Source: Acidobacteriota bacterium (GTDB taxonomy: Bacteria; Acidobacteriota; Holophagae; Holophagales; Holophagaceae). From it: a stretch of DNA of 64,000 bases. Below, one piece after another: positions 580 to 5,847 of the stretch; position 1 is the stretch's first letter, and each line of letters opens with the position of its first letter. Made by a program: the position numbers and the translations under genes. Below the pieces are notes generated by a model that saw only the letters and a program-made list of their open reading frames with translations, was not told the origin of the DNA and did no database searches. The stretch is taken from NCBI GenBank assembly GCA_021794095.1, contig JAJYRN010000004.1, positions 62,001-126,000 of the forward strand. Reading direction: 5' to 3'.

Positions 580-2841
580 ATGGCCCGCCGTCTCCCCTCC
601 CGTCCCGCCGCCCGCCCGCCCCGGCCCACTGACACCCGAAGTTCCGTCCCAGGCCCGCGGGGCCCGGGGCTTCGGCCTTTCGAAACCTTCGAGGCCACCT
701 TCCTGGGCCACCCGGAAGGCGCGGGCGGTTTCCTGCGGGTTCCCGGGCTGCCCAAGGGACCGGGGATGGATCCGGTCGTGGATTGGCAGGATGCCCATGG
801 CGCCATCCATGGCGACCGTGTCGTGGCCGAGATCAGCGGCGAGGGCTGGGACGGCCGCCTCAAGGCCCGCATCCTGGAGGTCAAGGGCCGGGGCGAAATC
901 CCCCTGCCCGGCACCCTCCAGAAACAGCCCTGGGGCTGGCGCGTGGTACCCCTGGAGCCCCGGCTGCCCCAGGTGATCGCCGTGCCCGCCACGGAGCTGG
1001 CGGAAGATGGCGAGCTGGTCAGCGTGCGGCTGGATGCGGATCCCGAGGCCAAGCAACTGCGCGGCACCGTGGTGGCCCGCCTCGGCAAGAAGACCGACCT
1101 GCGCATCGAGAACCGCCTGACCGCCGCCCTCTTCAACCTGCGCACCGCCTTCCCCGATGCCGTGATGAGGGAGCTGGCGCCTTTCCCCACTACGATCCCG
1201 GCCGAATGGATCACAGGCAGAGAGGATCTCCGCGAGGTGCTCACCTGCACCGTGGATCCCCCCACGGCGAAAGATTTTGACGACGCCATCAGCCTGGAGG
1301 TGCTGCCCCCCTCCGAAGGCGGCGGCTGGATCCTGGGTGTCCACATCGCCGACGTGAGCCACTACGTGACCGAGGGCGGGCCCCTGGACGAGGAGGCCCG
1401 GCTGCGCGGCACCTCAGTGTACTTCCCGGATGAGGCCATCCCCATGCTGCCCGAGCGACTCAGCGGAGAGCTGTGCAGCCTCCGGGAGGGCGTGGACCGC
1501 CTCACCCTGACGGCCTGGATGACGATCTCGCCCGACCTCGAGGTGGTGGAATCGCGCCTTTCCGAAAGCGTCATCCGCAGCGGGAAACGCCTCACCTACG
1601 ACGAAGTGAAGGAGGCCAGCCTTGACCTCTCCAGCCGCAAGCGGGCCGAACTGGGCGGCTCCCTCTGCGACCTGCTGGACCAGTCCCTGGTGCTGTCCCG
1701 CCAGCTCACCACCAAGCGCCTGGGCCGGGGCGCCATGAACCTGGATACCGAGGAGGCCGAGTTCATCTTCGACGCCGAAGGCCGCCCGGCTGACGCGCGC
1801 CGCTACCCGCGCCACGATGCCCACCGGATGATCGAGGCGTTCATGCTGCTCGCCAACGAGGCCGTGGCACGCTTCTTCACCCGGAAGAAAATCCCCACCC
1901 TCTACCGTGTCCATGACGAGCCCGATCCCCTGAAGCTGGAGGTCTTCGCGGAAGTGGCGCGCACTTTCGGCCTGCTGAAACCCAAGGAGGTGCCCACCCC
2001 GGACCATCTCAACGCCATGCTGGACAAGGTGCGGGGCGGCCCCTTGGAGGCGATGATCAACACCCTGCTGCTGCGCAGCCTGAAGCGGGCGGAATATTCA
2101 GCCGACAACATCGGCCACGCGGGCCTCGCCCTCCAGGACTACCTGCACTTCACCAGCCCCATCCGCCGCTACCCGGATCTCATCGTCCACCGCCTGCTCC
2201 GGAAGGTGCTCCGCGGCCAACCCCTCCCGGAGGGCCTCCACAGCCACCTGGCCGTCCTGGCCAAGGGCGCCAGCGATGCCGAGCAGAAGGCCACCGAAGC
2301 CGAGCGGGAGAACGACAAGTGGAAGGCCTGCCTCCTGATGAAGGACAAGGTGGGCCAACGGTTCAAGGGCCGCATCCAGGGCTTCTCCGCCAAGGTGGCC
2401 TTCATCACCCTGGACGCCCCCTTCGTGGAGGTGGGCGTGCCCATGGGCGCCCTGGGGGGGAACTTCTGGGTGGATGAGCACCGCACCAAGGCCACGGGTG
2501 TGCGCGGGTCCGTGGTGCTCACCCTCGGCGATGCGGTGGTGGTGGAGATCACGGCCGTGGACGAGGATCTGCGCCGCATCAGCGCCTGGCTCCTCGAAGC
2601 CGAGGGCCAGGATGAGCATGGCAAGGCCTTCACCTTCGCCCCGGTCCTGGCGGCGCCCGCCCGGCTGGGCGAAGGCGATTTCGAGAAACCCCGCACGGGA
2701 CGCGCCCAGGGCCGCACCGGAGGCGAGCGCAGCCGGCGGACGGAAAAGCCCCAGGGACGGCCGCCCCGGAAGGTCCGGGAAGCGCGACCCAAGCCGCCCA
2801 AAGGCAGTGTCCGTGGCGGTGCCAAGCGGAAGCCCAAATGA
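580..2841 (+). CDS. rnr: Ribonuclease R (RNB-family 3'-5' exoribonuclease)
   Basis: At 753 residues this is a normal RNase R, a processive 3'-5' exonuclease that degrades structured RNA. The RNB catalytic core is visible: KDFDDAISL near residues 230-238 carries the metal-binding aspartates, followed by GVHIADVSHYV and YFPDEAIPMLPERLSGELCS, and later LHFTSPIRRYPDLIVHR. An S1-type RNA-binding region (GQRFKGRIQGFSAKVAFITL) follows the core, and the last 60 residues are very basic, as in other RNase R tails. The start at 580 has only a weak, distant GAGG upstream, so the exact N-terminus is uncertain. Its stop overlaps the ruvC start by 4 bases (ATGA), suggesting coupled translation. Confidence 0.93.
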   Translation: MARRLPSRPAARPPRPTDTRSSVPGPRGPGLRPFETFEATFLGHPEGAGGFLRVPGLPKGPGMDPVVDWQDAHGAIHGDRVVAEISGEGWDGRLKARILEVKGRGEIPLPGTLQKQPWGWRVVPLEPRLPQVIAVPATELAEDGELVSVRLDADPEAKQLRGTVVARLGKKTDLRIENRLTAALFNLRTAFPDAVMRELAPFPTTIPAEWITGREDLREVLTCTVDPPTAKDFDDAISLEVLPPSEGGGWILGVHIADVSHYVTEGGPLDEEARLRGTSVYFPDEAIPMLPERLSGELCSLREGVDRLTLTAWMTISPDLEVVESRLSESVIRSGKRLTYDEVKEASLDLSSRKRAELGGSLCDLLDQSLVLSRQLTTKRLGRGAMNLDTEEAEFIFDAEGRPADARRYPRHDAHRMIEAFMLLANEAVARFFTRKKIPTLYRVHDEPDPLKLEVFAEVARTFGLLKPKEVPTPDHLNAMLDKVRGGPLEAMINTLLLRSLKRAEYSADNIGHAGLALQDYLHFTSPIRRYPDLIVHRLLRKVLRGQPLPEGLHSHLAVLAKGASDAEQKATEAERENDKWKACLLMKDKVGQRFKGRIQGFSAKVAFITLDAPFVEVGVPMGALGGNFWVDEHRTKATGVRGSVVLTLGDAVVVEITAVDEDLRRISAWLLEAEGQDEHGKAFTFAPVLAAPARLGEGDFEKPRTGRAQGRTGGERSRRTEKPQGRPPRKVREARPKPPKGSVRGGAKRKPK

Positions 2842-3332
2842 TGCCGCCGGCTTCTCCGTCCCGCTGCCTGGGCGTGGATCCCGGCTCCCTGGCCTGCGGC
2901 TGGGCGGTGGTCGAGCGCACTGGTTCCCGGCTCGCGCTGATCGAATCCGGCGTCATCCGCAATCCGCGGGGAGCGGATTTCGACCAGCGCTGCCTGCTCA
3001 TCCACCGGCGCCTGAGCGAGGCCATCGCCGCCCACCAGCCGGATTTCATGGCGGTGGAATCCCCGTTCGTGGAGAAGAACGCGGCCACGGCCCTGAAACT
3101 GGGCCAGATTCGCGGCGGCATCCTGCTCACCGGGGCCCTGCACGGCCTGCCCGTGGGCGACTACAACCCCATGCAGGTGAAGAAGGCCGTCAGCGGCTAC
3201 GGCTGGGCCGCCAAGGACCAGGTGGGGAAGATGGTCATGACCCTGCTGAACCTCACGGACCCGCTCCCTGCGGATGCCGCGGACGCCGCCGCCGTGGCCA
3301 TCGGGCACCTGCTGGCCACCCGGCGGGGATAA
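2838..3332 (+). CDS. ruvC: Crossover junction endodeoxyribonuclease RuvC
   Basis: RuvC resolves Holliday junctions as a dimer, with RuvAB. The 164-residue length fits. The first catalytic aspartate is in CLGVDPGSLACGW (D14), the glutamate in AVESPFVEKNAATALKLGQ, and the C-terminal acidic pair in PADAADAAAVAIGHL; the conserved MQVKKAVSGYGWAAKDQV stretch is also present. It is translationally coupled to rnr through a 4-base overlap. ruvA and ruvB are not nearby. A GC-rich intergenic repeat begins directly after the stop. Confidence 0.93.
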   Translation: MMPPASPSRCLGVDPGSLACGWAVVERTGSRLALIESGVIRNPRGADFDQRCLLIHRRLSEAIAAHQPDFMAVESPFVEKNAATALKLGQIRGGILLTGALHGLPVGDYNPMQVKKAVSGYGWAAKDQVGKMVMTLLNLTDPLPADAADAAAVAIGHLLATRRG

Positions 3333-3335
3333 TCT

Positions 3336-3470
3336 CAACGAGGGGGGACCGCCTGCTCGCGGTCGGCTCGCGATGTCCCCCCTCGTGCACCCCCACAGGC
3401 TGCCCCGGCCGAGCCGGGACACCCTGTCCGACCTCAACGAGGAGGGACCGCCTGCTCGCCCCCCCCGGTT
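3336..3470. repeat. GC-rich intergenic repeat, two partial units
   Basis: After ruvC the motif CTCAACGAGGGGGGACCGCC (from about 3334) starts a hairpin whose G-run pairs with the C-run at 3376-3383. A second copy beginning CCTCAACGAGGAGGGACCGC follows at about 3432. Between them lies an inverted repeat, ACAGG...CCCGGC-CGA-GCCGGG...CCTGT, at about 3395-3427. A related unit follows ffh at 17266. The location just after stop codons and the dyad structure suggest a REP-like element or transcription terminator. Confidence 0.6.
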
Positions 3471-3491
3471 TGCGCCGTCCCCCCGCCAGCG

Positions 3492-5240
3492 CTACGGCTT
3501 CGGTTTCACCATCTGGCAGCGGAACGTGTTCCAGGGGCCCTCAAGCATGACCCGCGCCTCGCCCCGCCAACCGAGGCCAGGCTCCTCACAGCGGATGAGC
3601 AGGGTCGTCCCGGGTTTGGGGGCCCGCAGCAGGATCCTCGGCCGCGCCTCGGCCCAGGGCCCCACGGTATAGGTTCCATCCGGATTCTTGGCCCCGAAGG
3701 TCATGGTCCCGAGCGGCTTGGCATCCCCCACCGGCAGGAGGTCCACCTTCAAGTTGCCGCGCTGGCTGGTGCGGAATTGCACACTCAGCCGGTCCCCGCT
3801 CAGCCGCCGGATGACGCCCTGGACTTCGCCTTCCGCCAGCGGGGTTTCCGGCTGCACGGCCTTGGCCGCCAGGACATCCATGACCAGCGCCCGGTAGCGG
3901 GTGGCCTCCTCGGTGATGTGCCCCCCGTCCAGGGCCTTCTCGCCGCAGTTGTAGGCTGCCACGGCCTTCTGGGTATCGCCGTGATAGCGGTCCAGGAGGA
4001 AGCGGAGGTACTTCACCCCCGCGGCGGTGACCTGGTCCCGGTCGTTCAGATCCTTCGCACCGAAGGCGCGGGCGGTCTCCGGCATCACCTGGAGGAGGCC
4101 GCGGGCGCCGGTGGAACTCGTGGCCGAGGGGTCGAACCCGCTCTCCACCCAGGCCATGCTCCGCAACAGCTGGGGATCCACGCCTTCCTGGGCGGCGAGG
4201 GCATCCAGACGCGCCACCGCCCCGGCGGGAACAGGGATGGGAGAAGGCGCCGGAACCGCGGCCCGCAGGGCGAGCACGGTGCAGGGCACCAGGAGCAGGG
4301 TGAGCAGGCTCCAATGGGCCCTCGCGGAAGGCCGGGGTGAAAGCAGGCGTTGGATGCGGGTGCGCAAGTGTCCTCCTCGGGCCGCAAGGACCGGGAACGG
4401 GTGCTGTGGAAGCACAGGCTGGAGATCATCCAGCGCGTTGAGGGCCAGGGCCAGGCGCCGCGGTTCGCCCAGGGTCTTGGCCGCCAGCTGGTCGGCGAGT
4501 TCTTCGCGCTCGGCCCGGATCCGGGCCGAGAGCCACCAGATGGCTGGGTGGAAGAAGAGCAGGGTCTCGACAACTCCCTGGAAAAGGTTGCTGAGGACAT
4601 CGAGGCGGCGCACATGGGCCAGCTCATGGGCCAGGAGCGCTTCCAGGTAGTCGGAAGGCAGGTTCGTGAATACGGCCACCGGGAACAGCACCATCGGTTT
4701 CCAGAAGCCGATCACCATGGGCGTACTCCCCCGCGCCGTCAGCATCAGGCCGACGGGGCGTCGTAGGCCCAGGCGCAGCGCAAGCGCATCCAGGCTGCGC
4801 TGCCATTCGGCGGGAGCCGGGGTTCCCTGCCGCTTCCAGCGCAGGCTAAGGGCGTAACCGCCCCCCAGGCGCAGCGCCATGAGGCTCGCGCCCACCGCCC
4901 AGAGAAGGACCAGGATCGGCAGCCGGGGCTCCACATAGGCTTCCCAACGGCCCCACAGGGGCATGGACACCGCGGCCAGGCGAGGGAGGTCGGTCGCAGC
5001 CGTCTCCAGGGAACGGAGATCCATCAGGCCGAGCCCCGACTCGACCGGCGCCGGGTGATAGGCATGCCAAGCCGTGGCAAGGGGCACCAGCAGACAGAGG
5101 CCCAGGGCCAGGCCATGCGCCCTGTGGCGGGCGTGGTCCCGCAGGAACAGGCCGCCCAGGGCCGCCAGCAGCACGAGGAGGCTGTCCTGCCAGAGCGCGT
5201 GGATCAGCGCCCAGCCGAGGATCTGAACGACCGGGTTCAT
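3492..5240 (-). CDS. Membrane M56 (BlaR1-type) metallopeptidase fused to a lytic transglycosylase domain
   Basis: The 582-residue protein has two parts. Residues 1-330 form a BlaR1/MecR1-like M56 module: hydrophobic segments near 5-33, 43-58, 105-127 and 311-327, a zinc motif HELAH at 205-209 and the downstream EREELAD near 245. Residues 340-460 are an SLT lytic transglycosylase domain with the catalytic glutamate in MAWVESGFD (about E366), GLLQVMPETA and AYNCG. A further 120 residues of unknown fold follow. In BlaR1 the corresponding position outside the membrane holds a beta-lactam sensor; here a murein-cleaving domain replaces it. The start codon overlaps the blaI-like stop by 4 bases. Inferred role: sensing or remodelling peptidoglycan and relaying the state to the repressor by proteolysis. 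Confidence 0.88.
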   Translation of the reverse strand: MNPVVQILGWALIHALWQDSLLVLLAALGGLFLRDHARHRAHGLALGLCLLVPLATAWHAYHPAPVESGLGLMDLRSLETAATDLPRLAAVSMPLWGRWEAYVEPRLPILVLLWAVGASLMALRLGGGYALSLRWKRQGTPAPAEWQRSLDALALRLGLRRPVGLMLTARGSTPMVIGFWKPMVLFPVAVFTNLPSDYLEALLAHELAHVRRLDVLSNLFQGVVETLLFFHPAIWWLSARIRAEREELADQLAAKTLGEPRRLALALNALDDLQPVLPQHPFPVLAARGGHLRTRIQRLLSPRPSARAHWSLLTLLLVPCTVLALRAAVPAPSPIPVPAGAVARLDALAAQEGVDPQLLRSMAWVESGFDPSATSSTGARGLLQVMPETARAFGAKDLNDRDQVTAAGVKYLRFLLDRYHGDTQKAVAAYNCGEKALDGGHITEEATRYRALVMDVLAAKAVQPETPLAEGEVQGVIRRLSGDRLSVQFRTSQRGNLKVDLLPVGDAKPLGTMTFGAKNPDGTYTVGPWAEARPRILLRAPKPGTTLLIRCEEPGLGWRGEARVMLEGPWNTFRCQMVKPKP

Positions 5241-5611
5241 CGTTCCTCCGGACCGAGCAGCTCCCGGATGCGGGCCTTCTCCTCGGGGCTGACCTTGCCG
5301 GAATGGAGCGCGGAAAGCACCAGAGCCGCCGCGGAACCCCCAAAGAGCCGCTCCGTCAGATCCGCCACCAGGCCCCCCTCCATGGTGGCCCGGCTGTGGA
5401 CGGGCGCATAGACATGGCTGCGCAGGCTCTCATCGCGCGTCACCAACCCTTTTTCCAGCATGACCTGGAGCATCCGCAGCACGCCGGTGTAGGCGTACTC
5501 CTCTTTCCGAATCAGATGGGCGTGGACCTCCTTGACGGTGGAGGGGCCCAGTTCCCAGAGAATGCACAGGAACTTCAGCTCCACTTCGGTCGGTTTGAGG
5601 GGACGGCGCAT
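5237..5611 (-). CDS. BlaI/MecI-family transcriptional repressor
   Basis: The product is a 124-residue winged-helix repressor of the BlaI/MecI (penicillinase repressor) family: PLKPTEVELKFLCILWELGP, TVKEVHAHL, YAYTGVLRMLQVMLEKGLV and the C-terminal dimerisation half match the family in order and length. I chose the ATG at 5611 rather than the longer frame to 5668 because the BlaI homology starts there, a GAGG lies 5-8 bases upstream, and the longer start would lie upstream of the operator dyad. The gene overlaps the M56 partner by 4 bases, the classical blaI-blaR1 arrangement. In characterised systems the M56 protease cleaves the repressor to induce the operon. Confidence 0.9.
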   Translation of the reverse strand: MRRPLKPTEVELKFLCILWELGPSTVKEVHAHLIRKEEYAYTGVLRMLQVMLEKGLVTRDESLRSHVYAPVHSRATMEGGLVADLTERLFGGSAAALVLSALHSGKVSPEEKARIRELLGPEER

Positions 5612-5620
5612 GGGGCCTCG

Positions 5621-5650
5621 TACACAAGATGGTCTAGACATACTTGTGTA
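5621..5650. promoter_or_regulatory. Operator dyad of the BlaI-type repressor
   Basis: TACACAAG (5621-5628) and CTTGTGTA (5643-5650) are perfect 8-base inverted arms, and the centre holds a second palindrome, GTCTAGAC (5632-5639), on the same axis. BlaI/MecI operators are TACA/TGTA dyads of about this size. The site is centred 25 bases upstream of the repressor start, so autoregulation is the likely function. Confidence 0.85.
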
Positions 5651-5680
5651 GTTCATTACCCCTGTCAAGCCTGGGCAACG

Positions 5681-5706
5681 AAAAGGGGCACCCGTTTGGG
5701 TGCCCC
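5681..5706 (-). terminator. Rho-independent terminator
   Basis: GGGGCACCC (5685-5693) and GGGTGCCCC (5698-5706) form a 9-bp stem with a 4-base loop. Read on the minus strand it is followed by TTTT. It lies downstream of the malic enzyme gene and upstream of the repressor operator, so it separates those two minus-strand units. Confidence 0.75.
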
Positions 5707-5847
5707 CAGGTGTCTCGGCCTTTCCTGGAGTTCGAAAGGCTGGAAGGGGCTGGCGTGAACGGTCGCCCCGCGGGAGGAAGGAGGAACTCTTCCCGCCCCA
5801 AGGCTAGGCCGCTCTCCAGGCCGTGCAAGAGCGGCCGTTCCAGCTCC

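Follow-up and report, generated by a model that had tools for sequence, protein, structure and literature searches.

A BlaI-type repressor operon of Geothrix encodes an M56 protease fused to a lytic transglycosylase and may constitute a self-contained regulatory circuit

The window analysed here, a stretch of 64,000 nt from a genome of the Holophagaceae (Acidobacteriota), carries a two-gene operon in which a blaI-family repressor gene lies directly upstream of a gene for an M56 peptidase fused to an SLT lytic transglycosylase domain. The second gene overlaps the blaI stop codon by 4 nt (ATGA). The following features were assigned to the operon and its promoter region:

5684..5707, (-) strand: terminator-like hairpin between the malic enzyme gene and the blaI/M56-SLT operon
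5663..5668, (-) strand: -35 box TTGACA, near-invariant among orthologues, 12 nt upstream of the operator
5621..5650, (-) strand: 30-bp tandem operator with the dyad TACACAAG-N14-CTTGTGTA, from a window scan and orthologue comparison
5237..5611, (-) strand: blaI-family repressor gene, 124 aa (PF03965, E 2.9e-23)
3492..5240, (-) strand: M56-SLT fusion protein gene, 582 aa, one intact open frame

A mechanical list of open reading frames starts blaI at TTG 5668; ATG 5611 is the likelier start, being favoured by the orthologues as well as by where the promoter lies. The operator consists of two overlapping 16-mers of the type TACAC-N6-GTGTA and is directly followed by the blaI start. From the spacing of the TTGACA box it follows that the operator covers the -10/start region. 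A strict sigma-70 promoter scan returned nothing, although the TTGACA is near-invariant by comparison; the -10 box of the blaI promoter is a poor match. Because the hairpin separates the malic enzyme gene from the operon, the latter probably forms a transcription unit of its own. The winged-helix Penicillinase_R domain and the predicted TACA/TGTA-type operator support membership of the repressor in the BlaI family. The preliminary description had recognized a layout of operator, repressor and M56 gene like that of blaI-blaR1, and this was borne out by adjoining PF03965 and PF05569 domains with the operator upstream. In one Geothrix metagenome-assembled genome (MAG) the usual overlap of the two genes is broken because a low-GC, secreted-looking ORF of 214 aa (L045:3288-3932) is inserted between blaI and the M56-SLT gene.

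Within the fusion protein the following features were located:

4467..4919, (-) strand: Peptidase_M56 domain, residues 108-258 (PF05569, E 2.3e-23)
4614..4628, (-) strand: zinc-binding motif HELAH, residues 205-209, at the aligned position of BlaR1 201-205
4503-4505, (-) strand: third zinc ligand E246, at the aligned position of BlaR1 Glu242
4257..4310, (-) strand: last transmembrane helix, residues 311-328, from the AlphaFold model and the charge pattern
3930..4196, (-) strand: SLT lytic transglycosylase domain, residues 349-437 (PF01464, E 3.3e-22)
4143..4145, (-) strand: codon of the catalytic Glu366, corresponding to MltE Glu64 by alignment and invariant in all aligned fused proteins
3495..3845, (-) strand: C-terminal immunoglobulin-like beta-sandwich, residues 466-582, from the predicted structure (pLDDT 90.6)

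The AlphaFold model of the protein (mean pLDDT 80, pTM 0.51) shows four long hydrophobic helices, with the protease between helices 3 and 4, followed by the SLT domain and the beta-sandwich. Residues 6-291 fit the membrane/protease half of Staphylococcus aureus BlaR1 over about 240 residues (VIA-align Z 15-19; 3.2-3.4 Å in the best rows). In the sequence alignment H205, E206, H209, E246 and D250 coincide with BlaR1 residues 201, 202, 205, 242 and 246, and His201, His205, Glu242 and Asp246 are among the zinc-site and active-site residues named for the BlaR1 structure (PMC9834060). The last transmembrane helix is preceded by the positively charged stretch RIQRLLSPRPSARAH, which marks the cytoplasmic side. 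With further positive charges in the loop between helices 1 and 2 and an acidic loop between helices 2 and 3, the distribution is the one expected for an SLT domain outside. Homology to BlaR1 and the positive-inside pattern thus provide good but indirect support for a periplasmic rather than cytoplasmic SLT domain, and the topology of the last helix, raised at the outset as a critical point, probably has this direction. A Pro/Ala-rich linker of about 10 residues joins the helix to the SLT domain; a link this short should keep the enzyme at work near the membrane.

The SLT part (residues 331-465) adopts the fold of MltF, Slt, MltE and MltD (VIA-align Z 13-16). Glu366 aligns with MltE Glu64, the residue altered in the inactive E64Q structures, and is followed by the motifs GLLQVMP and AYNCGE, so that the ES, G-L-Q and AYN-G motifs of SLT enzymes are all present. 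The catalytic residues are kept in 13 orthologues. No transpeptidase or penicillin-binding domain was found in the M56-SLT protein by Pfam search, and the NCBIfam model blaR1_generic scored 43.6 against a cut-off of 400. The replacement of the penicillin-binding sensor by an SLT domain with retained catalytic glutamate and GLLQVMP, as first read from the sequence, was therefore upheld by Pfam, the MltE alignment and the orthologues.

The sensor of BlaR1 is itself a penicillin-binding-enzyme fold that serves as a receptor. By analogy, the SLT fold might have become a murein-binding sensor devoid of catalysis within a circuit of otherwise BlaR1-like logic. This reading is very unlikely in view of the conservation of the domain: Glu366, G-L-Q, AYN-G and the position of Tyr449 are invariant in 12 fused proteins from several lineages, including both fusion groups described below. 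In three species pairs the SLT part gave dN/dS ratios of 0.18, 0.16 and 0.20, indicating strong purifying selection (0.42, 0.17 and 0.37 for the M56 part of the same pairs). Such values would not be expected for an enzyme turned mere ornament, and the SLT domain looks enzymatically active.

The C-terminal beta-sandwich comprises 117 residues; it occurs in Geothrix and in the Holophagaceae genome G411 and is missing from several other fusions. A Foldseek search with the sandwich found nothing at E<=0.001; the VIA matches, which were to unrelated immunoglobulin-like sandwiches, did not exceed Z 9.2. As no specific structural relative was found, only the general fold is claimed.

Orthologues of the fusion were present in 21 of 47 Geothrix genomes, that of the window included. 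The 20 further proteins share 57-89% identity with the one described here; one is fragmentary and the others are intact. The relatives that bear names are Geothrix species, the remainder Acidobacteria MAGs. The orthologues share one syntenic site, which lies between the malic enzyme gene and ruvC-rnr. These flanking genes still adjoin in six genomes that lack the operon, and tblastn detected no remnant of it there. A frameshift or assembly artefact, named in the preliminary description as a finding that would undo it, is excluded by these orthologues, whose frames are open in genomes that include single-contig ones. The same frames rule out a pseudogene, and purifying selection and the conserved operator argue against a dead gene. 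Nothing was found in favour of either explanation, and their probability is negligible.

The operator was conserved in all 20 genomes in which the upstream DNA was present, and its outer arms were nearly invariant. With up to 3 mismatches allowed, the window yielded no second copy of the dyad, where chance alone would give 0.03. A scan of the 47 Geothrix genomes, again with 3 mismatches allowed, located the operator in 20 of them, in exactly one place each and always at the blaI promoter. It was absent from the genomes lacking the operon, and the reversed control pattern had no match in the same scan. The only orthologue without a detected operator, that of G023, starts at a contig end. Half-operator sites in the genome of the window (16 bp, at most 1 mismatch) were considered as further regulon members and rejected, as each falls either within apparent coding DNA or within an IS-like repeat at contig breaks. 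With one operator per genome, the regulon is most likely the operon itself. Within the sensitivity of the pattern search, which could miss weak operators, the M56-SLT protein and BlaI are most likely the sole products under the repressor, and the controlled product is most likely a transglycosylase. The regulon beyond autoregulation, initially left open, is thereby narrowed to this operon alone by the genome-wide and genus-wide dyad scans.

An IS-like end sequence, GTCGTGTACACCAATTTCTGTAAGTTCCCC, was observed about 100 bases from contig ends in seven places of the genome of the window (L126-L129, L131, L135 and L137) and probably causes its assembly breaks.

The same genome contains a second BlaI and M56 pair (L001, contig C24), the outer part of which consists of two TonB C-terminal repeats. 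Its operator (GTACGAACCAGTTCGTTGACAAATCCGAACCGGTTCGTAC / TACGAACC...) differs from that of the M56-SLT operon, and the two circuits therefore look insulated. The paralogue thus resembles the M56-SLT system in its BlaI partner and its M56 half, with the C-terminal part swapped: TonB C-terminal repeats in one, an enzyme in the other.

The architecture is not unique to the genome of the window or to Geothrix. BlaI together with an M56-SLT protein also occurs in further genera of the Holophagaceae (G411, G365, G372 with two copies, and G334), in two other families of the Acidobacteriota (G262 and G345) and in the Myxococcota (L081, G517 and G635). Lengths and tails of the fusions vary, and the protein of G334 ends right after the SLT domain. 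All non-Geothrix fusions whose upstream DNA was read have BlaI directly upstream, and operator-like repeats with sequences different from the Geothrix operator precede blaI. The two M56-SLT genes of G372 (L173 and L168) each have their own blaI. SLT fusions were not seen in Pseudomonadota or Planctomycetota among about 790 sampled genomes with three candidates scored per genome, which is a weak negative. Another Holophagaceae M56 protein (L174 of G357, 2106-3821), placed near the Geothrix type by the M56 tree, lacks an SLT domain and ends in an unassigned tail; the idea gained by eye that this tail contains two copies of the C-terminal sandwich was unsupported (E 1.1).

A tree was built from the fused SLT domains together with free-standing enzymes of the same genomes. 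In it, the Holophagaceae fusions grouped with free-standing SLT-DUF4124 enzymes of the Holophagaceae, and the fusions of the Myxococcota and the other Acidobacteria formed a separate clade. A single group of all fusions appeared in 0 bootstrap trees and was rejected by the AU test (p = 0.031). The M56 tree likewise rejected one clade of fused proteins (AU p 0.0005), with poorly resolved deep branches. At least two independent fusion events are thus favoured as the better reading, not proven.

The system shares with BlaI-BlaR1 and MecI-MecR1 a BlaI-family repressor beside an M56 receptor-protease, the fold, zinc ligands and topology of the membrane/protease half, and a palindromic operator at the repressor promoter. 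It differs in lacking a penicillin-binding domain, in place of which an SLT domain and a beta-sandwich lie outside, in the residue at the P1' position of BlaI (Ala, not Phe) and in its single-operon regulon. No gene for a beta-lactamase or a resistant penicillin-binding protein (PBP2a) was found under the operator, with the reservation that weak sites may escape the scan. Since three features of BlaR1 and MecR1 were not found (a penicillin-binding domain, the canonical cleavage site and a resistance gene under control), the M56-SLT protein should not be called BlaR1; it is built like BlaR1 and probably works like it. Acylation by a beta-lactam cannot be the signal without a PBP-like domain.

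Fold and catalytic motifs are those of the family 1 lytic transglycosylases (Slt, MltE, MltF and MltD; PF01464). In contrast to these, the M56-SLT protein is anchored in the inner membrane via a signalling protease and has a repressor of its own. As in the case of Escherichia coli MltG, a transglycosylase would be held next to the outer side of the inner membrane, at the place of nascent glycan synthesis (PMC8135044). The likeness is an analogy only, as MltG represents a different catalytic family, YceG, and has neither a protease half nor a BlaI partner. The three building blocks are all known. Literature searches combining M56 or BlaR1 with transglycosylase revealed no description of the fusion, which is weak evidence; the combination is apparently undescribed, and its architecture may well be catalogued in domain databases.

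The best reading of the operon is a variant of the BlaI-BlaR1 type in which a single enzyme is both sensor and output. By binding to the tandem operator, which covers the -10/start region, BlaI would silence its own operon. Anchored in the inner membrane, the M56-SLT protein would have its protease on the inner side and its SLT domain immediately beyond the outer surface. Engagement of glycan strands by the SLT domain, or failure to engage them, would alter the state of the domain, and the last membrane helix would relay this change to the protease. The protease would then inactivate BlaI, as is triggered in BlaR1 by the binding of a beta-lactam, and more transglycosylase would be made, the enzyme acting as receptor and output. 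We give about even chances to an autoregulated, self-contained circuit of this kind, in which direct sensing by the SLT domain and a self-limited output determine how much of a membrane-anchored lytic transglycosylase is present. A single-operon regulon could also mean simple dosage control in which no periplasmic signal takes part.

How BlaI would be inactivated bears on a second explanation. The cleavage-site Phe of BlaI, described as almost invariant (PMC9834060), is Phe102 at P1' and aligns with Ala101 of the present repressor (Ser100-Ala101 versus Asn101-Phe102); the compared BlaI partners of other fusions also carry Ala at P1'. The known cut may therefore not apply, and BlaI, if cleaved, would be cleaved with another specificity or at another place. 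The peptidoglycan dipeptide gamma-D-Glu-mDAP binds BlaI and MecI and destabilizes the repressor-DNA complex (PMC3305447), so that products of the SLT domain could affect BlaI with no conformational signal involved. The SLT domain would then be merely an enzyme whose turnover fragments enter the cytoplasm, where a wall-derived peptide loosens BlaI from the operator and the M56 protease acts on BlaI or on the fragment. The loss of the cleavage-site Phe and an SLT domain that looks active are in line with this explanation. However, the reported affinity for the dipeptide is weak (millimolar), the other SLT enzymes of the genome would make the same products, and there would be no reason for the covalent joining of SLT and M56 that the trees suggest to have occurred at least twice. 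We consider it rather unlikely.

A third explanation dispenses with an outside signal: the M56 protease would chiefly control the transglycosylase by self-cleavage or turnover of the fusion, with BlaI as negative feedback on its amount. BlaR1 cleaves itself spontaneously in a protease-domain loop before the last helix (PMC9834060). The loop of residues 281-289 is predicted to be disordered and its Phe282 is invariant in Geothrix, and the operon itself is the only operator target found. In BlaR1, however, signalling is reported to rest on a step other than self-cleavage (PMC9834060), and a cut at this place leaves the SLT domain anchored by the last helix, so that its activity need not change. 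This explanation is unlikely.

Direct sensing by the SLT domain can be put in a more specific form, for which our support remains tentative. Glycan strands that occupy the SLT active site, or are turned over in it, would directly gate a cross-membrane protease that switches only the gene of its own enzyme, a murein-cleavage homeostat evolved at least twice. Murein turnover, proposed as the signal when the locus was first described, is a candidate for that role.

It is largely an open question how bacteria gauge and restrain the potentially lethal cutting of their own cell wall. In the present system a covalent link connects the cutting enzyme to a signalling protease whose repressor apparently has a single target, and sensing, signal transfer and output seem to be packed into two genes. 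The BlaR1 chassis evidently accepts enzymes in the sensor position, which suggests that the sensing of beta-lactams is a special case within a wider family of wall-monitoring receptors, and a specific model of wall-hydrolase homeostasis becomes testable.
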